A stretch of 50,310 bases of DNA from Butyrivibrio sp. (GTDB lineage Bacteria; Bacillota; Clostridia; Lachnospirales; Lachnospiraceae), in NCBI RefSeq assembly GCF_017433805.1, contig NZ_JAFRGN010000006.1, positions 1 to 50,310 of the forward strand, in the 5' to 3' direction. The notes below the pieces were generated by a model, which worked only from the letters and a program-made list of their open reading frames with translations, did not search any database and was not told where the DNA came from. Positions 5,873 through 37,227 of the stretch are shown piece by piece (within the stretch, counting starts at the first letter, position 1; every line of letters begins with the position of its first letter). Both the position numbers and the translations under genes were made by a program.

Positions 5873-5941
5873 AGTTGTTAAAATGCACAAACGGGGACTG
5901 TGTTTAATAGAAAAGCAATCGCGAGTAATTGGGAGGGTTCC

Positions 5942-6898
5942 ATGAGTAAGAATACTAATTCATCTTCTACGCAGGTAATCAGGAAGCGCGGGGTGCTAGA
6001 AACTTTGTGGAGATACAGAGTTTTGGAACTTATGTGTTTGCCTGCAGTAGTCTTTTTCTTCCTTTTCAGCTATATGCCGATGCCCGGTATTTGGGTAGCC
6101 TTTGTTAAATATAATTACAGAGATGGTATTTTTGGAAGTAAGTTCGTAGGTCTTAAGAACTTCCAGTTCCTGGCAGAGTCAGGCAAGCTCTTTGAACTTA
6201 CCAAGAATACAATTCTCTACAATATCGCATTTATTATCCTGGGTAACTTACTTGCTATTCTCGTAGCTATTCTTCTTAACGAGATGCAGAGCAAGATGTT
6301 CAAGAAGGTATCACAGACAATGATGTTCCTTCCATACTTCATTTCACAGGTACTTGTAGGAATTCTTGTTTACAACCTTTTAAATTATGACTACGGTTTT
6401 GTAAATGAGGTTCTCACATCACTTGGAAGAGAGAAATGGGGACCGTATTCAGATCCTTCGGTTTGGCCGGTAATCCTGGTAATCGTTCATTTGTGGCAGC
6501 AGACAGGTTACAACTCAGTTGTTTACTTCGCTGCAATCTGCGGAATTGATGCAGAGATCATCGAGGCAGCCAAGGTTGATGGTGCCAACGCTTTCCAGAA
6601 GATCAGATACATCATTCTTCCAGGACTTAAGCCTACAATAGTAATTCTTCTGTTGTTCGCTCTTGGTGGAATCGTAAAAGGTAACTTTGGTCTGTTCTAC
6701 AACATTATCGGTACTAACTCACTTCTTTATCCTACAACAGATATTATTGAGACTTACGTGTACCGTGCTACAATCAATGACTTTAACTTCTCTACAGCAT
6801 CAGCTGTTGGTTTGTATCAGTCAATCATAGGCTTTGTAATGGTTATGGCAGTTAACTACATAGTTAAGAAGATTGATCCAGATTATTCACTGTTCTGA
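5942..6898 (+). CDS. Carbohydrate ABC transporter permease, LplB-type (CUT1 family)
   Basis: An inner-membrane permease of 318 residues with about six hydrophobic helices. The cytoplasmic coupling (EAA) loop is visible near its C-terminal half as AAKVDGANAFQKIRYIILPG. It pairs with the next gene to form the channel of a sugar importer. The start at 5942 is preferred over an in-frame GTG at 5900 because GGGAGGG lies just upstream; the region before it also contains the operators and promoter. No ATPase gene lies nearby, which is common for CUT1 systems of Bacillota that share an MsmX-type ATPase. Expression is probably controlled by the adjacent LacI-type regulator. The substrate is not readable from this gene; a galactoside is inferred from the GH35 enzyme downstream. 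Confidence 0.92.
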   Translation: MSKNTNSSSTQVIRKRGVLETLWRYRVLELMCLPAVVFFFLFSYMPMPGIWVAFVKYNYRDGIFGSKFVGLKNFQFLAESGKLFELTKNTILYNIAFIILGNLLAILVAILLNEMQSKMFKKVSQTMMFLPYFISQVLVGILVYNLLNYDYGFVNEVLTSLGREKWGPYSDPSVWPVILVIVHLWQQTGYNSVVYFAAICGIDAEIIEAAKVDGANAFQKIRYIILPGLKPTIVILLLFALGGIVKGNFGLFYNIIGTNSLLYPTTDIIETYVYRATINDFNFSTASAVGLYQSIIGFVMVMAVNYIVKKIDPDYSLF

Positions 6899-6941
6899 TT
6901 ATTGATGCAAAAGAAATTAAGAAAATAAGAGGAGTTTTACG

Positions 6942-7862
6942 ATGGCTAAATCAAATGAAATCGAAATGACTGGCGTTAAAGTTAAACTTGGCGCTTCAGA
7001 TATTATTATAAGAGTTTTTGGATATGTACTTATTACATTCTATGCTCTTGCATGTATTTTTCCTTTCCTGATCATCATCGGTACATCTTTTACCAATGAG
7101 GCAGTAATCAGAGCAGAAGGTGTTCAGCTTCTTCCAAAGGAGTTCACACTTAAAGCCTATGAGATGGTTGTCAGAGGCGGAATGATCTGGAAATCATACG
7201 GACTTACAATTACTCTTACATTATGCGGAACAGTAGTAGGTCTTATGATAATTGCTATGACAGGTTATGCACTTCAGAGAAAAGATTTCCCTCTCAGAAA
7301 TGCAATTTCCTTCTATATTTACTTTACTTCACTGTTCTCAGCAGGACTTGCACCATATTACCTTCTGATGACACAGACCTACAAATTAAATGATAGCTAT
7401 CTGGCAGTATTTTTCCCTCTTCTCATGTCACCTTGGCTGATCATTCTCATGAAGAACTTTGTTAAAGCTATCCCTCATGAGATCACAGAATCAGGTAAGA
7501 TTGACGGAGCCGGAGATATGGTCATCTTTACAAGACTTATTCTTCCTATGCTCAAGCCAGCTCTTGCTACAATAGGTCTTTTCCTTGCACTTGGATATTG
7601 GAACGAGTGGTATCAGTCATCTCTTTTCCTTAGTTCAAGAGTAGCTGTTAAGCCACTTCAGTTCCAGCTGTACAAGGTTGTTAACGAAACTCAGGCACTT
7701 AAGAATTCAATCGCCGGACAGTACATCACACTTACAGATGTACCTACAGAGTCACTTAAGATGGCAACAGCAGTTATGGCAACAGGACCTATCGTATTCC
7801 TGTATCCATTCGTTCAGAAGTATTTTATCGGCGGTATTACCGTTGGTGCGGTAAAGGGCTGA
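6942..7862 (+). CDS. Carbohydrate ABC transporter permease, LplC-type (CUT1 family)
   Basis: The second permease subunit, 306 residues with six predicted helices. Its EAA loop reads ESGKIDGAGDMVIFTRLILP, followed by the usual MLKPALAT segment. The C-terminus ends VQKYFIGGITVGAVKG, typical of LplC/YtcP-like permeases. AAGAGGAG precedes the ATG. It is separated from the first permease by 43 bp and from the binding protein by a 134-bp spacer rich in hairpins, and should be cotranscribed with both. Confidence 0.93.
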   Translation: MAKSNEIEMTGVKVKLGASDIIIRVFGYVLITFYALACIFPFLIIIGTSFTNEAVIRAEGVQLLPKEFTLKAYEMVVRGGMIWKSYGLTITLTLCGTVVGLMIIAMTGYALQRKDFPLRNAISFYIYFTSLFSAGLAPYYLLMTQTYKLNDSYLAVFFPLLMSPWLIILMKNFVKAIPHEITESGKIDGAGDMVIFTRLILPMLKPALATIGLFLALGYWNEWYQSSLFLSSRVAVKPLQFQLYKVVNETQALKNSIAGQYITLTDVPTESLKMATAVMATGPIVFLYPFVQKYFIGGITVGAVKG

Positions 7863-7901
7863 GAGAACTTGCTGAGGTTTTTTCGAAGCTAGTTCGAACG
7901 T

Positions 7902-7960
7902 CTTCCGGCGAGCGTATGCGAGAGCGGAAGTTCCTTGTTTGAAACTCACGTAAGTGGGTT
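7902..7960 (+). other. Hairpin pair in the permease / binding-protein spacer (possible mRNA processing or stability element)
   Basis: Two stem-loops lie between the second permease and the binding protein: CTTCCG (7902-7907) with CGGAAG (7925-7930), and AACTCAC (7943-7949) with GTGGGTT (7954-7960, one G-T pair, 4-nt loop). Neither has a T-run, so they are not simple terminators. In many sugar operons such spacers raise the level of binding-protein mRNA relative to permease mRNA; that role is inferred here. Confidence 0.5.
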
Positions 7961-7996
7961 CACATATTCATTTTCTTATCAAAAAGGAGGATAAAA

Positions 7997-9640
7997 ATGA
8001 AGAAAAAGTTATTAGCAACATTACTTAGCGCAAGCATGGTACTTGGTATTGCAGCATGTGGCTCATCTACAGCTGAAACACCAGCTCCTGCAGACACAAC
8101 TGCAACACAGACAGAAACAAAGACTGAGACAACTACAACTGATGCAGGCAGCACAGAGACAGCAGACGCTTCAGCTATCGACACATCTGAGCATGTAGTT
8201 ATCACCTACATGACAACAGGTGGTGCTCCAGAAGGAAACCAGACAGATGCTATGCTTGAGCAGCTGAACAAGATCCTTACAGAGAAGGTTAACGCAGAGC
8301 TTGAAGTATACTACATCGACTGGACAGATTATCTTTCAGTTTATAACTTAACACTTGCACGTATGGACGGTACAGTAGACCTTGTTGGTACAGCTTCTGA
8401 CTGGCTTGATGCTTGGCCAAATGCCAAGAATGGTGCTTTCCTTGAGCTTTCAGAGGATATGCTCAAGACATACGCTCCTAAGACATGGGAGTCAGTATCA
8501 CCTGAGCACTGGGAACTTTGCAAATATGATGGAAACATCTACCTTATGCCAGAAGATAACTATGCACAGTGGACTAACCACGGATTTGCATATCGTCTTG
8601 ACTGGGCTAAGGAAGCAGGCCTTGCTGATGGCGTTAAGAGCTGGGAAGACCTTACAACATACTTCAAGTATGTAAAAGAGACATATCCTGATGTTATTCC
8701 TTGGGATTCAGACGGCACACAGTATGCAACAATGGTTGGTGGATGGATCACATCTCACTCTAACTATGTTTCAATCGATGGTATCAACTCCGGCGCTATG
8801 TGGGGTGGTACAAAGGATGACCTTTACACAGTATATTCACCATATGTAACAGATACAGATTCACTTGTTGAGTTTGCTAAGATGATGAAGGAATGGGATG
8901 AGATTGGCGTTTGGAAGACAGACGTTCTCAACAACACAACTTCTGACAACAGAGAAGACTTCAAGATTGGCCGTGTAGCAGCTGAGCAGCACCACACACA
9001 GACTTGGACAGACCTTTGCTCACACAAGGATGGCTATACAATCTATGATGATCCTAAGGCTGAAACAGGCTTCTTCTACTTTGGTGAAGAGACTAAGAAC
9101 CTTGTAGCTCTTTCAATCACTCACGGTGCTATGGCTGTATCTGCAGCTTCCAAGAACCCTGAGAGAGCTCTTATGGTTTATGACCTTATCAGAAACGATC
9201 CAGATTGCTACAAGCTTTTCAACTATGGTGTTGAGGGCGTTTCATACGAGCTTACAGCTGATGGCATGAGAAAGACTCCAGACGGATACAACTCAGCTAC
9301 AGATGGTATTTCTGTAAACTACTGGTGGGGACGTAACGATGACCTTGAGATCAAGGACGCTACAATGAACTGGGATGCTATCGAGAAGCTCTACAAAGAG
9401 TATGATGCAATCAAGATCGACTATCCATATGGACAGTTCGTTCCTAACGTAGATGACATTCAGTCTAAGATCGACAACATCAATGATATTCACACAACAT
9501 ACATGAAGCAGATCGCATTTGGTAAGTACCAGGGATCAGCTGAAGATATCGTTGCTGAGTATCAGGAAGCTCTTAAGAAGGCTGGTATCGATGATGTAAC
9601 AGCTGAGCTTCAGAGGCAGTTCGACGAGCTCTACAAGTAA
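7997..9640 (+). CDS. Extracellular sugar-binding lipoprotein (ABC transporter substrate-binding protein)
   Basis: A 547-residue solute-binding protein of the LplA-like group that works with the two upstream permeases. The N-terminus is a lipoprotein signal peptide with lipobox IAAC (cysteine near residue 21), followed by a Thr/Ala/Glu-rich linker to about residue 55 that would hold the binding domain off the membrane. The mature domain begins near VVITYMTTGGAPEGNQ. The C-terminal 60-80 residues resemble the small helical domain (DUF3502-like) found at the end of this group. AAAAGGAGG precedes the ATG at ideal spacing. Codon use is strongly biased, consistent with high expression, and a strong terminator follows. 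The ligand is not known. Confidence 0.93.
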   Translation: MKKKLLATLLSASMVLGIAACGSSTAETPAPADTTATQTETKTETTTTDAGSTETADASAIDTSEHVVITYMTTGGAPEGNQTDAMLEQLNKILTEKVNAELEVYYIDWTDYLSVYNLTLARMDGTVDLVGTASDWLDAWPNAKNGAFLELSEDMLKTYAPKTWESVSPEHWELCKYDGNIYLMPEDNYAQWTNHGFAYRLDWAKEAGLADGVKSWEDLTTYFKYVKETYPDVIPWDSDGTQYATMVGGWITSHSNYVSIDGINSGAMWGGTKDDLYTVYSPYVTDTDSLVEFAKMMKEWDEIGVWKTDVLNNTTSDNREDFKIGRVAAEQHHTQTWTDLCSHKDGYTIYDDPKAETGFFYFGEETKNLVALSITHGAMAVSAASKNPERALMVYDLIRNDPDCYKLFNYGVEGVSYELTADGMRKTPDGYNSATDGISVNYWWGRNDDLEIKDATMNWDAIEKLYKEYDAIKIDYPYGQFVPNVDDIQSKIDNINDIHTTYMKQIAFGKYQGSAEDIVAEYQEALKKAGIDDVTAELQRQFDELYK

Positions 9641-9664
9641 TAACTTGAACTAATTACTAGATAA

Positions 9665-9706
9665 AAAGGGAATACTGTAGACTAGTTTTGCAGTATTCCC
9701 TTTATT
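9665..9706 (+). terminator. Terminator after the sugar-binding protein
   Basis: AAAGGGAATACTG at 9665-9677 pairs with CAGTATTCCCTTT at 9691-9703, a 13-bp stem whose 3' arm ends in a T-rich stretch. Confidence 0.9.
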
Positions 9707-9756
9707 ATAAAAATGAGGAAACGAAAACAATAGCTTTAGTTTTCAGGAGATAAATT

Positions 9757-11625
9757 ATGGGAAAATTTGAAATTAAGGATACCTTTTATTTAAATGGAGA
9801 ACCATTCAAGGTTATATCTGGTTCTTTTCACTATTTCAGGACTGTCCCGGAGTATTGGGTCGACAGACTTGAGAAGTTAAAAGCTCTTGGATGCAATACC
9901 GTTGAGACCTATATTCCATGGAATCTTACAGAGCCTAAAAAAGGTGTATTTAATTTTGAAGGTTTCTGCGACATAGAGAAATTTATACAGACTGCTACTG
10001 AGCTGGGCCTTTACATTATTATCAGGCCATCACCTTATATCTGCGCTGAGTGGGAATTTGGCGGACTTCCAGCATGGCTGTTAAAAGACAGAAATATGCG
10101 CCTTAGAGTCAGCTACAAGCCTTTTCTTGATGCGGTAGAGGATTATTATAAGGTTCTGATGCCTAAGATCACCAAGTATCAGATTGATAATGGTGGAAAC
10201 ATTATTCTCATGCAGATTGAGAATGAGTATGGATATTACGCTAATGACCATGAGTACATGAAGTTTATGCGTGATCTGATGGTTAAGTATGGCGTTACAG
10301 TACCTCTTATTACTTCAGACGGCCCATATCATGAGAGCTACAGAGGTGGCTATGCAGAAGGTGCTCACCCTACTGGTAACTTTGGATCCAAGACAGAAGA
10401 GCGCTTCAATGTAATCAAGGATTACACAAACGGTGGACCACTTATGTGCGCTGAGTTCTGGGTTGGCTGGTTTGACCATTGGGGAAATGGCGGCCATATG
10501 AAGGGCAACCTCGTACAGAGTACTGAGGACCTTGATAAGATGCTTGAGCTTGGAAATGTCAGTATCTACATGTTCCAGGGTGGTACAAACTTTGGATTTA
10601 TGAATGGCTCTAACTATTACAACGAGCTTACACCTGACGTTACAAGCTATGACTATGATGGAATACTCACTGAGGATGGACAGATCACTGAGAAGTATCG
10701 TAGGTACCAGGAAGTAATTCGCAAGTATGTGGACGTTCCAGAGGTTGAGTTTAGTACCAAGATCAGCAGAAAGAGCTATGGAACACTTGAGTGTAAGGAG
10801 AAGGTATCTCTTTTTGCAACACTTGATACACTCAGCACTCCAGTGCATCTTCCTTATACGGTTAACATGGAAGAGCTTGATCAGAGCTATGGCTATATTC
10901 TCTATAGATCAAGACTTCATTCAGAGGCTGGAATTGCCAAGCTTAAACTCTGGGAGACTGGAGACAGAGCTAATGTATTTGTAGATGAGAATCCGCTCAT
11001 TACACTTTATGACCTGGAGCTTAACGATGAGCATAATATTCCTATGGAGAAGTTCCTTGCATGCTCTCAGCCTGCACAGATGCTCGCCGGTAAGTTTATG
11101 ATGGAGAATGGACTCACTCCTGAGACTGCTGCAGCTGCTATTGGAGAAGCAGGTCTTTCTACAGGAACTCTTCAGGGACTTAATGAGAAATTTGATGTCC
11201 TTGTTGAGAACATGGGACGTGTTAATTTTGGCCCTCGTATGGAGACACAGAGAAAGGGTATTAACAGATGTGTTCAGATTAACGGTCATATACATAATGA
11301 CTGGGATATCTATACACTTCCTCTTGATAACATCGACAAGGTAGATTTTAGTAGAGAATACAAAGAGGGTGCGCCTGCATTCTATCGCTTTACATTTGAT
11401 GTTGATGAGAAGGGTGACACATTCCTTGACTTCGAAGGATGGGGCAAGGGAGTAGCATTTATCAATGGCTTTAACCTTGGAAGATTCTGGGAAATCGGAC
11501 CTCAGAAGAGACTGTATATACCAGCTCCTCTTCTTAAAGATGGAGAAAATGAGATCATTATCTTTGAGACAGATGGTAAGGTAAGAGATACAATTGAGCT
11601 CAAAGATGAGCCAGATATTGGTTGA
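9757..11625 (+). CDS. Cytoplasmic beta-galactosidase, glycoside hydrolase family 35
   Basis: A 622-residue GH35 enzyme that should remove terminal beta-linked galactose from oligosaccharides. The N-terminal TIM barrel carries the family signatures: SGSFHYFRTVPEYW, the acid/base in QIENEYG (E157) and the nucleophile in MCAEFWVGWFDHWG (E233). C-terminal beta domains end with the conserved GVAFINGFNLGRFWEIGP stretch. There is no signal peptide, so it acts on imported oligosaccharides, which fits the ABC importer upstream. A terminator separates it from the binding-protein gene, and I see no clear copy of the LacI operator in front of it. It may depend on read-through or on a promoter I could not identify. 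A small GAAAAC/GTTTTC inverted repeat lies just before its GGAG ribosome-binding site. Confidence 0.93.
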   Translation: MGKFEIKDTFYLNGEPFKVISGSFHYFRTVPEYWVDRLEKLKALGCNTVETYIPWNLTEPKKGVFNFEGFCDIEKFIQTATELGLYIIIRPSPYICAEWEFGGLPAWLLKDRNMRLRVSYKPFLDAVEDYYKVLMPKITKYQIDNGGNIILMQIENEYGYYANDHEYMKFMRDLMVKYGVTVPLITSDGPYHESYRGGYAEGAHPTGNFGSKTEERFNVIKDYTNGGPLMCAEFWVGWFDHWGNGGHMKGNLVQSTEDLDKMLELGNVSIYMFQGGTNFGFMNGSNYYNELTPDVTSYDYDGILTEDGQITEKYRRYQEVIRKYVDVPEVEFSTKISRKSYGTLECKEKVSLFATLDTLSTPVHLPYTVNMEELDQSYGYILYRSRLHSEAGIAKLKLWETGDRANVFVDENPLITLYDLELNDEHNIPMEKFLACSQPAQMLAGKFMMENGLTPETAAAAIGEAGLSTGTLQGLNEKFDVLVENMGRVNFGPRMETQRKGINRCVQINGHIHNDWDIYTLPLDNIDKVDFSREYKEGAPAFYRFTFDVDEKGDTFLDFEGWGKGVAFINGFNLGRFWEIGPQKRLYIPAPLLKDGENEIIIFETDGKVRDTIELKDEPDIG

Positions 11626-11639
11626 ATATAGCACGTGAC

Positions 11640-11671
11640 AAAAGAGGTGACTTGGATGCCGCCTCTTTTTT
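11640..11671 (+). terminator. Terminator after the GH35 gene
   Basis: AAAAGAGG at 11640-11647 pairs with CCTCTTTT at 11662-11669 and the T-run continues to 11671. Confidence 0.8.
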
Positions 11672-11685
11672 GTATTAATGAAATT

Positions 11686-11715
11686 AAAAAAGACCACCGG
11701 TATATGCCGGTGGCC
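11686..11715 (-). terminator. Terminator of the minus-strand peptide gene
   Basis: On the minus strand, CCACCGG and CCGGTGG (plus 11707-11713 and 11694-11700) form a 7-bp GC-rich stem, extended by GGC/GTC ends, followed by TTTTTT. It lies 16 bp beyond the stop codon of the 61-residue peptide gene, which supports that gene being real. Confidence 0.85.
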
Positions 11716-11731
11716 TAATTTACCAAGCAAA

Positions 11732-11917
11732 TTATGGATGATAGATTACATCAGCACCTGGTGCTTCTGTATTTACAGTTCCGCCGCTGAAGCTCTTCCA
11801 GTTAGTGTTTCTGTCAGCATCGTAGATATAGCCATCAACATATCTTGTATCGTCGCCGCTGAGCTGTGTTCCACTGAGCTTAAGCTCTTTGATCTCTGGT
11901 GTGTTCCAAGTCTTCAT
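11732..11917 (-). CDS. 61-residue RiPP-precursor-like peptide (orphan)
   Basis: A small peptide starting MKTWNTPEIKELKLSGTQ and continuing into a region rich in Gly, Asp, Tyr, Thr and Asn that ends DVIYHP. The N-terminal pattern W-x2-P-x(4)-L-x-L-x2-T resembles leaders of ribosomally made, modified peptides such as lasso-type precursors, which are recognised by a RiPP recognition element through a YxxP-type motif. The start at 11917 is supported by GGAGGAG upstream; an earlier in-frame TTG exists but has no such site. A dedicated terminator follows, and codon use matches the highly expressed genes of the window. No maturation enzyme, protease or exporter for it lies in the window. It could instead be an unmodified secreted or signalling peptide. 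The gene is convincing and its function is inference. Confidence 0.65.
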   Translation of the reverse strand: MKTWNTPEIKELKLSGTQLSGDDTRYVDGYIYDADRNTNWKSFSGGTVNTEAPGADVIYHP

Positions 11918-11951
11918 ACCTTTTGCTCCTCCATGATACTTTTTTTCCCGC

Positions 11952-11965
11952 AAGTTGGCCAACTT
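11952..11965. repeat. 14-bp perfect palindrome upstream of the peptide gene
   Basis: AAGTTGGCCAACTT is fully self-complementary with no gap. It lies 35 bp upstream of the peptide start codon, in the position of its 5' leader or promoter, and could be an operator. Confidence 0.6.
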
Positions 11966-12123
11966 ACAGAGGCTATGTTATCACTGCACCATAGTAGAGT
12001 AAAGGAATCTTACACAACTGTAACAGATGTGTTCAAATTGTTAAAAGTTTACCATAATACGATAACAACCAATATCAAATTCTGAAAAACAATATAAATA
12101 TATCGAATAACAACAAAAATATA

Positions 12124-12157
12124 TTGACATTCAATTTTAGGAGTATTATCCTAAAAT
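12124..12157 (+). promoter_or_regulatory. Promoter region with inverted repeat upstream of the DUF2975/Xre operon
   Basis: TTGACA at 12124-12129 is followed by the 9-bp inverted repeat ATTTTAGGA (12134-12142) / TCCTAAAAT (12149-12157) with a 6-bp centre. A TATTAT at 12144-12149 is only 14 bp from TTGACA, so the true -10 is uncertain. The repeat covers the core promoter and is a good candidate operator for the small Xre protein of the same operon. Confidence 0.55.
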
Positions 12158-12205: not shown

Positions 12206-12688
12206 ATGGGAAAAGATGGGAATAAGGTGAATGTAAACGAGTCAGCAAGCATCGGTGCAACAAAAGCCTTTATAGTTATCCTGACAGTTGCTGCAGTGAT
12301 TATGTGTGTTCTGGGCCCCAGAATCGTAGAGATCGTCATGACCAAGACAACACCACTTGTACCGGATGAGTACAGATTCTGGATTATGTTAATTGGGGGA
12401 TATGTTCTTGCAACGATTCTATTTGTCTTTTTGTCTCTATTATATAAGCTGGTTTGCAGAATAGAACTGGGCGAAGTATTTGTAGAACAGAATGTTAAGG
12501 CACTTAGAATCCTTAGTAAGCTCGTATTTGCCGCATGTGTTATTACATTCGCTATCGGAATCACCTGTACGTACATGATATTCGTCATCACCGTTACAAC
12601 CGCATTTGTGACACCTATCATCAGTGTTATAGGACATGCATTTGCCAAGGCGGTAGCGATGAAGGATGAATTGGACCTGACTGTATGA
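12206..12688 (+). CDS. DUF2975 family membrane protein
   Basis: A 160-residue protein with about four hydrophobic segments (near residues 15-40, 55-80, 100-120 and 125-145). It ends in AFAKAVAMKDELDLTV, the charged tail characteristic of DUF2975 proteins, which are nearly always encoded just upstream of a small Xre regulator, as here. TTTGGAGG precedes the ATG. The function of the family is unknown. It is the first gene of a three-gene operon and is separated from the regulator gene by 10 bp. Confidence 0.85.
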   Translation: MGKDGNKVNVNESASIGATKAFIVILTVAAVIMCVLGPRIVEIVMTKTTPLVPDEYRFWIMLIGGYVLATILFVFLSLLYKLVCRIELGEVFVEQNVKALRILSKLVFAACVITFAIGITCTYMIFVITVTTAFVTPIISVIGHAFAKAVAMKDELDLTV

Positions 12689-12941: not shown

Positions 12942-14262
12942 GGTAGTCTTTAGATGGGCTGCCATCATAAGTTATGTTGTGGGATTTATTTATATTAAGT
13001 ATATGGCCTGGAGCGCAGGCATTTGTGACAATGATTTCTGGCAGGGCAAATACGGACTCAGGATGCTGATCTTTGCAGTGATTTTTATTGTATGCACAGA
13101 GCTGTTTGCAAATCTTACAGGCGTTACCTATCAGAGTATTAAGGAAAAAAAGAACTCGGTAATCGAGCCGATTATCTATATCGCATGCATATTGCTTCAG
13201 TCAATTGGACTTGCTTTCTGGAACTTCCATGATGACTGGGAGGCTGCACAGCTCTTTTTCTGGCACTTTACAATTATCTATTATATTCTCGCAAGAACAG
13301 GCTCACTGGTAGCTGGCAGAAGCGGAATAATGTTTATCATAGACTGTTTTCAGGGATGTGTTGTTATTCCGGTCAGCAATATGTTCCTCAGAGTAGTTGC
13401 TATTTTCAAGAGAGAAGATAAGCTTGATGAAAATGGAAATGTTATTCCAAGGAAAAAGATTTCTGCTAGAACTGTTGCAACAATAGCAGCTTCTTCGTTT
13501 GTAGCACTCATCATTTGCTTATATGCGTATGTTCAGCTTGCAAATGCATCAGATACCTTTGAAGATGTTGGAACTCGTTTCTTTGAGGCTTTAAATAAGT
13601 TTTTCACTCAGGATTTCTGGGAGTATATTACAGAGAACTTTGTATTTTTCTTAACTTCAATCCCTGTTAGCTGGTTCCTTTTCTGCCTGCTTGGTGGAAC
13701 TCTCAACACTGATAAGCCTTACGTTACAGATGAGAGAATTGAACATGAGACAAAAGGCTTCCACGTGCTTCCTTCATATTCAGCTTATATCATTATCGGA
13801 AGTGTTTGCCTGTTATATACATTGTTCCTTGGCGCTTCAATAAATGACTTTATCAACCATAAAGGTCTTTTTGCAGCAACAGCACATGAAGCATCAGTAA
13901 GAGCAGTTGGAAGCTTCTGGAGCCTTATAAGAGTTGTTCTTTTGAACTTTGTAATCCTTGCCGGATCATGTTTCTTCTCACAGAAAGCTCTTTGGGATGA
14001 GAAGGCTACAAGAATCCTTGCAACAATACTTTTTGTGTTCGCCCTTGGATTCGCAGTTCTTGCTGCATGTAACCTCATTGGTGTATATATCATGATCTTT
14101 GGAATCACACCAAGAAGAATTATGTCATCATGGGTAGTTATGAATGTCATTGCATGGTGCATACTCCTGATAATTCGTTTTTACAAAAAAATACCTGCCG
14201 CTCAGATCGGTATTATCCTTGCGGCAGTTTCATTCTCAGTTGTTGTATGCTTTAAATTCTAA
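12922..14262 (+). CDS. Multipass membrane protein, DUF4153-like
   Basis: A 446-residue integral membrane protein with roughly ten to twelve hydrophobic segments and a short charged loop near residues 165-185 (KREDKLDENGNVIPRKK). It resembles the poorly characterised DUF4153/DUF4173 membrane proteins, but I cannot assign the family firmly. The start at 12922 has GGAGG six bases upstream inside the end of the Xre gene; an in-frame ATG four codons earlier would lack that site. It shares the operon with DUF2975 and the regulator. Its last 11 bp overlap the convergent serine hydrolase gene, and no terminator is visible between them. A role in transport, sensing or envelope stress is possible and unproven. 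Confidence 0.8.
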   Translation: MEVKKNKVVFRWAAIISYVVGFIYIKYMAWSAGICDNDFWQGKYGLRMLIFAVIFIVCTELFANLTGVTYQSIKEKKNSVIEPIIYIACILLQSIGLAFWNFHDDWEAAQLFFWHFTIIYYILARTGSLVAGRSGIMFIIDCFQGCVVIPVSNMFLRVVAIFKREDKLDENGNVIPRKKISARTVATIAASSFVALIICLYAYVQLANASDTFEDVGTRFFEALNKFFTQDFWEYITENFVFFLTSIPVSWFLFCLLGGTLNTDKPYVTDERIEHETKGFHVLPSYSAYIIIGSVCLLYTLFLGASINDFINHKGLFAATAHEASVRAVGSFWSLIRVVLLNFVILAGSCFFSQKALWDEKATRILATILFVFALGFAVLAACNLIGVYIMIFGITPRRIMSSWVVMNVIAWCILLIIRFYKKIPAAQIGIILAAVSFSVVVCFKF

Positions 14263-15772
14263 GTGTTCCATATAGGTGACCATCAAATTCTCTAAAGTAG
14301 GTCTCTTCGATCTTGCGCATGAAGACTGTAATGTCTCCATCACCAAAGTACAGCTCGAACCTAAGGGACCCTACACATTCACCTATGAGATGGACGCGAA
14401 TATATAGAACATTTTCTCTAAGCCAGATGGCACCTGCTGCAAAGTGGGTGCCTTCGTTTTGCTCTGGGCCACATAAGGAAGCCTTCATATCTGAAGGGAT
14501 TATGTCGCCTTCTACCATGTTCTGGAATCCAAATTTTATTTCGGTAAAAGAACTATCGCCGCTCTTATCATCTGACAAAAGCTTTAAGGATGACGCATCC
14601 TCTGACAGATCAAGTACCAGCTTGGTATAACCCTGCCTGTTATTGTCAAGGTCATATTCCAGGTGCTTGGATGTGATGCATGGAGTAGGATTTGGCCGTC
14701 CATTTGGAATCTTTGGAAGTTCGACTTTTAAGGATTCCGATAGCTTCATAAGCTCATCGTAATCTCTTTTGCCGTCTGTAACTTCCTTTATATCATCACA
14801 AATTCCAGGTAAAAGAATATTGTAAATGCCATCATATATAACCTGATTGCCACCAGCAATTCCCTGAGTGTCAGCAGTTGTCATGATCAGAAGCTCCTGC
14901 TCTGGAAGGCTTATGGCCAGCTGACCACCCATGCCATACATTACAAAGCCGCCCATTTCATTCTGCCAGATCTGCATTCCATAGCCCACAGATTCACTTG
15001 GAAGAGGCCCTGTCATTATGCTGTCGCTCAGGTTAGAAGTGGCAAGCTCGATGAACTGTGGATTTAAAAGAGTTCTTTTTTCACCATCGTTGCAAACTAC
15101 AGTGCCTTTTTTATCAAGGACATATAAGACCTTCAGAATATCCATTGGAGTTGCCATAAGGCCACTTCCGCCGATAGATACCCCAAAGGGATCCTTGACC
15201 ATATATGAGTTTTCGCTGAAATCAAGATAACACAGGAACTTTTCTCTCAGGTACTCCAGCATTGGCTTATCTGTAAGCTTTTCTACAAGTGCGCACATTA
15301 CATGGGCTGCAGATGTGTCATAGTGGAACACTGTTCCAGGCTTATGTGTGGGAGCTACGGTAAAAAAGCTCTCGACCCAGTCGGACTTCATATCTACCTT
15401 GTAGGTGGTAGAAGCGTGACAGGTGCGCATCATCAGCATATTTCTGATGGTTGTCTCTTTTATCCAATGATGGGTATCGGCTGTTATGTATTCAGGAAAA
15501 TATTTGGTAATGGAATCATCAAGAGATATTTTTCCCTCATCTGCCAAAAGAGAAATGGCCATGGCAGTGAAACTCTTACTTATGGAAAACATTCTGTGAA
15601 GAGTATCTTTTTTATAGGGGGCATAATATTTTTCAAATACAAGCTTATCTTTTCTCATTATGAGAAGTGAGTGCATTGGAATTTCTTTTTTATCAAGATA
15701 TAAGAGGAGGTCACGAATCGATGAAGATTTTATTCCTGCCTCTTCTGGAAGTGTGGTGTTAAAAGCGAACAT
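14252..15772 (-). CDS. Serine hydrolase, beta-lactamase / penicillin-binding-protein-like family
   Basis: A 506-residue member of the class C beta-lactamase-like hydrolases (Pfam Beta-lactamase group, which includes esterases and D-amino peptidases). The catalytic SxxK is S63-I-S-K66 in MFSISKSF. The second motif is probably near the HYDTSAAHV stretch and the third near GMGGQLAIS. Residues from about 380 to the end form a separate beta-rich domain. There is no signal peptide, so it is probably a cytoplasmic esterase or peptidase rather than a resistance beta-lactamase. It is transcribed convergently to the DUF4153-like gene with an 11-bp overlap, an arrangement that would place the two mRNAs in antisense contact. 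Confidence 0.85.
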   Translation of the reverse strand: MFAFNTTLPEEAGIKSSSIRDLLLYLDKKEIPMHSLLIMRKDKLVFEKYYAPYKKDTLHRMFSISKSFTAMAISLLADEGKISLDDSITKYFPEYITADTHHWIKETTIRNMLMMRTCHASTTYKVDMKSDWVESFFTVAPTHKPGTVFHYDTSAAHVMCALVEKLTDKPMLEYLREKFLCYLDFSENSYMVKDPFGVSIGGSGLMATPMDILKVLYVLDKKGTVVCNDGEKRTLLNPQFIELATSNLSDSIMTGPLPSESVGYGMQIWQNEMGGFVMYGMGGQLAISLPEQELLIMTTADTQGIAGGNQVIYDGIYNILLPGICDDIKEVTDGKRDYDELMKLSESLKVELPKIPNGRPNPTPCITSKHLEYDLDNNRQGYTKLVLDLSEDASSLKLLSDDKSGDSSFTEIKFGFQNMVEGDIIPSDMKASLCGPEQNEGTHFAAGAIWLRENVLYIRVHLIGECVGSLRFELYFGDGDITVFMRKIEETYFREFDGHLYGTLRI

Positions 15773-37155: not shown

Positions 37156-37227
37156 GCCTCGTTGGTCAAGCGGTTAAGACGCTGCCCTCTCACGGCAGAA
37201 TCAGCGGTTCGATTCCGCTACGAGGTA
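37156..37227 (+). tRNA. tRNA-Glu (anticodon CUC)
   Basis: A full 72-nt cloverleaf: acceptor stem GCCTCGT with ACGAGGT (first pair G-T), D arm around GGTCAAGCGGTTAAGA, anticodon stem CTGCC/GGCAG with loop CTCTCAC giving anticodon CTC at 37189-37191, and T arm GCGGTTCGATTCCGC. The discriminator base is A at 37227. CCA is not encoded. It lies alone between PAP2 and rimP with its own promoter and terminator. Confidence 0.96.

Follow-up and report, generated by a model that had tools for sequence, protein, structure and literature searches.

The window, by which we mean the whole 50,310-nucleotide stretch of Butyrivibrio sp. DNA that was analysed, holds a single small gene between those for a GH35 glycosidase and a DUF2975 protein. 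Judged by comparison with its relatives, this gene very probably encodes the precursor of a lasso peptide. (Here G, C and L numbers designate genomes, contigs and loci, respectively; G000 is the window's own genome, and the genus sample comprises 79 genomes.) The features of the site are as follows.

9757..11625, plus strand: GH35 glycosidase, left edge of the syntenic site
11640..11676, plus strand: separate terminator of the GH35 gene (-12.3 kcal/mol, z -4.0, 1 of 200 shuffles as good)
11691..11716, minus strand: intrinsic terminator of the precursor gene, a 10-pair hairpin (11716-11691) followed by a T run
11732..11917, minus strand: probable lasso precursor A, 61 aa, from ATG 11917 to the stop codon at 11734-11732; 67% identical to G000:C4:27144
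11735..11860, minus strand: core, residues 20-61 (putative cut site); Asp or Glu at T+10 or T+11 in 40 of 46 precursors
11861..11917, minus strand: leader, residues 1-19 (W4, P7, L12, T17); 17 of 19 residues identical to the C4 paralog, T17 invariant (n = 47)
11926..11932, minus strand: ribosome-binding site GGAGGAG, 8 nt upstream of the ATG; the syntenic G309 gene has GGAGGA
11953..11964, no strand assigned: perfect palindrome AGTTGGCCAACT upstream of the precursor, forming the core of a predicted hairpin; found again at the corresponding position in G309 (L046:9745-9756)
12017..12044, minus strand: candidate promoter TTAACA-16-TACAGT with TG before the second hexamer, a consensus match only; similar block in G309
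12206..12688, plus strand: DUF2975 protein, right edge of the syntenic site

The gene is confirmed as a real open reading frame (11917..11732, minus strand; translation MKTWNTPEIKELKLSGTQLSGDDTRYVDGYIYDADRNTNWKSFSGGTVNTEAPGADVIYHP). The same frame can be read from a TTG at 11962, giving 76 aa with 15 additional residues, but alignments with homologues begin at ATG 11917 and not at TTG 11962. A sequence-only reading had described a 61-residue peptide with a W-x2-P-x4-L start and a Gly/Asp/Tyr-rich C-terminal part, with a good ribosome-binding site and a dedicated terminator, and all of this stands. The start reads W4-x2-P7-x4-L12, Gly, Asp and Tyr make up 15 of the 42 residues from 20 to 61, and GGAGGAG is suitably placed 5' of ATG 11917. 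The precursor terminator folds at -21 kcal/mol (z -5.4, with 0 of 200 shuffles as stable), and since the convergent GH35 gene has its own terminator on the plus strand, that of the precursor is indeed dedicated. The predicted hairpin around AGTTGGCCAACT (window 11918-12012) has a z of -2.5, with 1 of 200 shuffles as good; in its G309 version some stem pairs are changed while, by eye, pairing is kept. This hairpin is possibly a regulatory element. Promoter-like sites number 10 in the region against 6.6 expected. Searches with the window peptide found no family in Pfam or NCBIfam, no match among solved structures at E 10, and none among plasmid records.

The homologue search that the sequence-only reading had suggested was run, and it recovered relatives with a conserved leader. 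The closest within the genome is a paralog, G000:C4:27144 (67% identical, E 4.3e-27), which shares 17 of 19 leader residues and 24 of 42 core residues with the window precursor. When the 79 genus genomes were searched with the single sequence, G303 and G321 matched clearly, as did the own genome, and further matches were weaker; of 299 genomes sampled across the family, two matched at E 0.001, one of them the own genome. Matches on viral contigs (L036/L037) were rejected as short, interrupted by stops and lacking a leader start, as was an own-genome match on C47 (E 0.55, within a 294-aa frame). The first 20 sequences aligned all share M1, K2, W4, P7 and T17; in an alignment of 47, M1 and T17 remain invariant and K2 and W4 are conserved in at least 90%. 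The leader pattern alone is noisy, since a search with it gave 77 matches against 30 in a reversed-sequence control. From these, 46 precursors were kept (47 with the window's), and the 31 dropped comprise 2 duplicates and 29 that by eye lacked a full leader, a number close to that in the reversed control.

Lasso leaders carry the motif YxxPxL and a Thr at the penultimate position (-2), and the Asp or Glu that accepts the ring bond lies at core position 7-9. In the window peptide the aromatic-x-x-P motif is present as W4-N-T-P7, with W in place of the Y. Counting from the invariant Thr, 40 of 46 precursors have an acid at T+10 or T+11 and 6 have none there, and an acid occurs at offset 9 in 15% and at offset 12 in 9%. 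(This count covers 46 of the 47, one near-identical G317 copy being omitted, and two precursor-like ORFs found later at L138 are uncounted.) Gly is at T+3 in 33 of 46. Together the acid spacing and this Gly fit a core that starts at T+3 and a ring of 8 or 9 residues. For the window peptide we infer a leader cut after residue 19 or 20, which makes D28 core position 9 from S20 or 8 from G21. The predicted ring would thus be S20-D28 (9 residues) or, with the cut given for relatives in PMC7533575, G21-D28 (8 residues), neither of which is preferred. The dehydrated core has a calculated mass of 4605.07 Da when it begins at S20, 4518.04 Da at G21 and 4718.16 Da at L19. From these putative starts T17 would lie at -3 or -4 rather than the classical -2; a passage of PMC7533575 states -3 for the rumen lasso precursor set. 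Two related precursors with a lasso leader (L092:5156-5314 and L096:7739-7906) have no acid at T+9 to T+11 and may make something else.

The class assignment draws on the surroundings of the C4 paralog, which sits between a B2 leader peptidase and an asparagine-synthetase-like cyclase (C). The same cluster also holds a histidine kinase, a response regulator, an ABC exporter, an HprK-like gene, NTP_transf_5, glycosyltransferases and a PqqD-type B1. Its B2 scores 68.4 bits with NF033537 (cut-off 33), and B1, the RRE protein, scores 81.3 bits with NF033536 (cut-off 80) and by sequence resembles the solved lasso B1 proteins TbiB1 (5v1u, 5v1v) and 9x90. The cyclase exceeds the cut-offs of PF00733 and PF13537; however, it falls far under the NCBIfam lasso-cyclase cut-off, with 132 of 525 bits (NF033535, lass_lactam_cya), and its matches by sequence among solved structures are a hydroxyamidotransferase and asparagine synthetases only. 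A Cys and a His are invariant in 7 aligned B2 proteins, and S-x-G-L-D-S is invariant in 12 aligned cyclases (SSGLDS in that of C4). Clustering of the precursor with B and C is found for the C4 paralog; it is not found for the window gene.

The sequence-only reading had stated that no modifying enzyme is near, and for enzymes of the lasso kind this holds: when all 50,310 bases of the contig were searched by tblastn (E 1e-3) with B1, B2, five cyclases and HprK, nothing matched. It had also proposed looking for RRE or lasso enzymes elsewhere in the genome, and B1 (the RRE), B2 and C are those found on contig C4. The own genome has one PqqD match over cut-off, one B2 and, by protein search, one B1. 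Six precursor matches (E 0.01) occur at five places, namely the window, C4, C28, C33 and, with two, C27; there is a cyclase at each of the other four, leaving the window as the only place without one. At C28, C33 and C27 the cyclase is of a second type (SGGLDS), C27 also carries an HprK-like gene, and no B1 or B2 match was found at these three in the 11-14 kb read. These satellite lasso-like cassettes, with cyclase beside precursor, lie at G000:C28 (L090:6849-9031), G000:C33 (L091:4592-6779) and G000:C27 (L092:4128-7678). (It should be noted that the assembly is 98% complete in 74 contigs and that only 3 kb separate the G309 B2 from the start of its contig; pieces may therefore be missing.) Because B1, B2, C and HprK gave no match on the window's contig, processing in trans is the likely route.

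Taken together, these observations make it probable that the window gene is a lasso precursor that lies apart from its enzymes and is processed in trans by those of C4. The leader, through W4-x2-P7 and on to T17, would bind the single B1 of the genome, and the single B2, a cysteine peptidase, would then cut at residue 19/20 or 20/21. Ring closure would fall to the cyclase of C4, which belongs with the paralog described above: it would link the freed N-terminus with Asp28 and so form a ring of 9 or 8 residues around the tail. The C4 ABC exporter may carry the product out. Here we infer every enzymatic step, the cut site, and the expression and export of the window peptide.

An unlikely alternative, yet the one that fares best, is that an old cassette at this site lost its kinase and cyclase and left the precursor behind as a silent, decaying remnant. 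Gain or loss does occur here, as comparison of relatives indicates. In G309 the order of genes is GH35, HprK, C, A, A, DUF2975 and in G361 it is GH35, HprK, C, A, DUF2975; in both, the A genes are oriented towards C, whereas in G303 and G304 the gap between GH35 and DUF2975 is about 300-340 bp, with no precursor, C or HprK found. In the window the precursor stands alone, and the absence of a cyclase from its contig would suit a remnant. Against this, the ORF, ribosome site and terminator are intact, and the 226 bp upstream of the window gene are 81% identical to those of the G309 gene adjoining DUF2975, including the palindrome, although the distal part of this block is the DUF2975 promoter, common to all five genomes. 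The match to G309 extends into the leader codons. The coding part behaves differently, being 67% identical to the C4 copy versus 27% to the G309 precursor adjoining DUF2975, while the upstream region of the C4 copy has only a 14-bp match to that of the window. The combination of G309-like upstream and C4-like coding sequence therefore suggests a resident upstream region with a core of C4 type. Either kinase and cyclase were lost here or the core was gained, and the five genomes do not separate the two.

Comparison of the window and C4 copies also bears on decay. dN is 0.23 and dS 1.63 overall, with values of 0.05 and 0.89 for the leader and 0.33 and 2.59 for the core, and the leader residues and D28 are intact. 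The low dN relative to dS argues for coding constraint, and for a maintained product that is related to the C4 product but different from it; since dS is near saturation, however, the window copy may still have begun to decay recently.

It is considerably less probable that B1 recognises the leader and another enzyme acts on the core to give a different modified peptide. The presence of two cyclase types, and of glycosyltransferase, nucleotidyltransferase and kinase-like genes in the hub, could be read in this way, but the acid spacing of a lasso ring in 40 of 46 precursors cannot easily be, and all 18 of the longer homologue loci (L033-L035, L038-L052) match B2 or C at E < 1e-4, with the weakest match at L051, which carries a cyclase of the second type (L101). 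The earlier suggestion of an unmodified signalling peptide reusing a RiPP-like leader would suit a gene that stands alone with its own terminator, but is now very improbable given that 17 of 19 leader residues are those of an in-cluster lasso precursor and that no signal-peptide-like stretch is seen in the window peptide by eye.

The reading of the window gene as a trans-processed lasso precursor can be set against the genus as a whole. Of 79 genomes, the same 24 contain B1 (E 1e-4) and B2 (over cut-off); each of these has one B2 match and 23 have one B1, G311 having two. (The B2 match of G323 has stop codons and that of G311 is partial.) Precursor matches are present in 21 of the 79, all within these 24. 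The B2 genomes G323, G330 and G335 have no precursor match, and neither do the 55 genomes without a B2 over cut-off. Counts of matches are not independent, since profile A2 includes many of the sequences that it finds; the lack of any match in those 55 genomes carries more weight. An earlier profile, A1, which predates recognition of the satellites but holds a few of them, gives 20 of 79 genomes, all with B2. This co-occurrence of precursor with B1 and B2 also partly reflects precursors inside the clusters themselves. Nevertheless, while 27 of the 51 precursor matches lie within 20 kb of B2, the other 24, in 10 genomes, are more than 20 kb away or on another contig; those of G309:C10, G317:C50 and G311:C6 are near contig ends, so that their partners may be off contig. 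Where 6 kb or more was read on each side, the precursors without a cyclase are that of the window, L093 (G309:C3) and L096 (G303, with HprK). G309 has 7 precursor matches, none on the contig of its B2, and its B1 is on yet another contig. The G309 B2 hub (G309:C26, L141:3081-6775) comprises B2 (74%), ABC (87%), a regulator and a kinase; no precursor or cyclase was found in the 19 kb read, and a cassette beyond the nearby contig end is possible.

These distributions lead us to favour, with some reserve, a hub-and-satellite arrangement in which one B1 and one B2 per genome would serve scattered precursors, some with private cyclases and some without any enzyme. Cassettes of kinase, cyclase and precursor would be gained, lost and given other cores at fixed sites, with the hub itself kept. 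Searches for lasso peptides normally look for compact clusters. Should precursors and cyclases act far from one shared peptidase, cluster-based mining would miss products, a cell would have a changeable set of lasso peptides, and the genus would offer a natural experiment on the number of leaders and cores that a single B1/B2 pair can accept. The G309 hub, in which the stretch read shows neither precursor nor cyclase, makes the question of a shared peptidase directly testable.

Putative lasso precursors of this group have been listed for Butyrivibrio proteoclasticus B316, FD2007 and Butyrivibrio sp. VCD2006 (PMC7533575 Table 3, Sabino et al. 2020), and the B316 entry is identical to the G303 peptide. 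The listed precursors are 59-65% identical to the window's, with the same leader, the same Asp and the same Y-D-x-x-R-x-x-N-W-x-x-[FY]-S-G; according to the portions of that paper available, the cut precedes Gly (G1-D8) and precursors were sought around lasso clusters, whereas no lasso enzyme was found on the contig of the window gene. The sequence-only proposal of an undescribed modified peptide processed in trans is thus supported as to a RiPP acting in trans, with processing that is itself conjectural and a class that is now lasso, but it fails as to novelty, as the group was already published. An excerpt of the Hungate1000 survey gives 21 predicted lasso clusters, mostly from Butyrivibrio, with 12 cores of the form [GA]x7D (PMC13289728); its rule, as given there, was PF13471 plus Asn_synthase, by which a lone precursor would go unreported. 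The available parts of PMC13352647 and PMC12670498 contain nothing on lone or scattered lasso precursors, and searches of the open-access literature gave no account of lasso precursors that are lone, scattered or processed in trans, of B1/B2-free cassettes, or of a single shared hub. The window peptide is a new member of the published putative group, and its lone, scattered architecture was not found described.

Among known systems, those of paeninodin and pseudomycoidin, as described in sections of PMC9266682, are like the C4 hub in having a split B1/B2, C, a kinase and nucleotidyltransferase-like genes; the window precursor differs in being unclustered and in having its Thr further from the core. 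In addition, PadeK and PsmK of the paeninodin type modify a C-terminal Ser, whereas the window peptide ends in Y-H-P. A C-terminal Ser is present in 11 of 14 precursors with an acid only at T+10 versus 8 of 26 with one at T+11, so that C-terminal kinase tailoring perhaps goes with one acid-spacing type. Lanthipeptides with unclustered proteases, another RiPP class, are likewise matured by an enzyme encoded elsewhere in the genome (PMC8960859, in part); there it is the protease that is unclustered, whereas in the present case a single peptidase is accompanied by scattered precursors and cyclases.

Other features of the window were observed in passing. An AT-rich direct repeat (12087-12129) upstream of the DUF2975, HTH_26 and DUF4153 genes is conserved in five aligned species and is likely the operator or promoter of that operon. 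On the other side of the site (5900-11625), ORFs resembling a sugar ABC uptake system by reading lie beside the GH35 gene, which alone was domain-tested. A serine-hydrolase or beta-lactamase-like gene (14252-15772) has as its best match 3-succinylated cholic acid synthase, well below cut-off, and a tRNA gene (37156-37227) is the only Rfam match in the window at gathering score.
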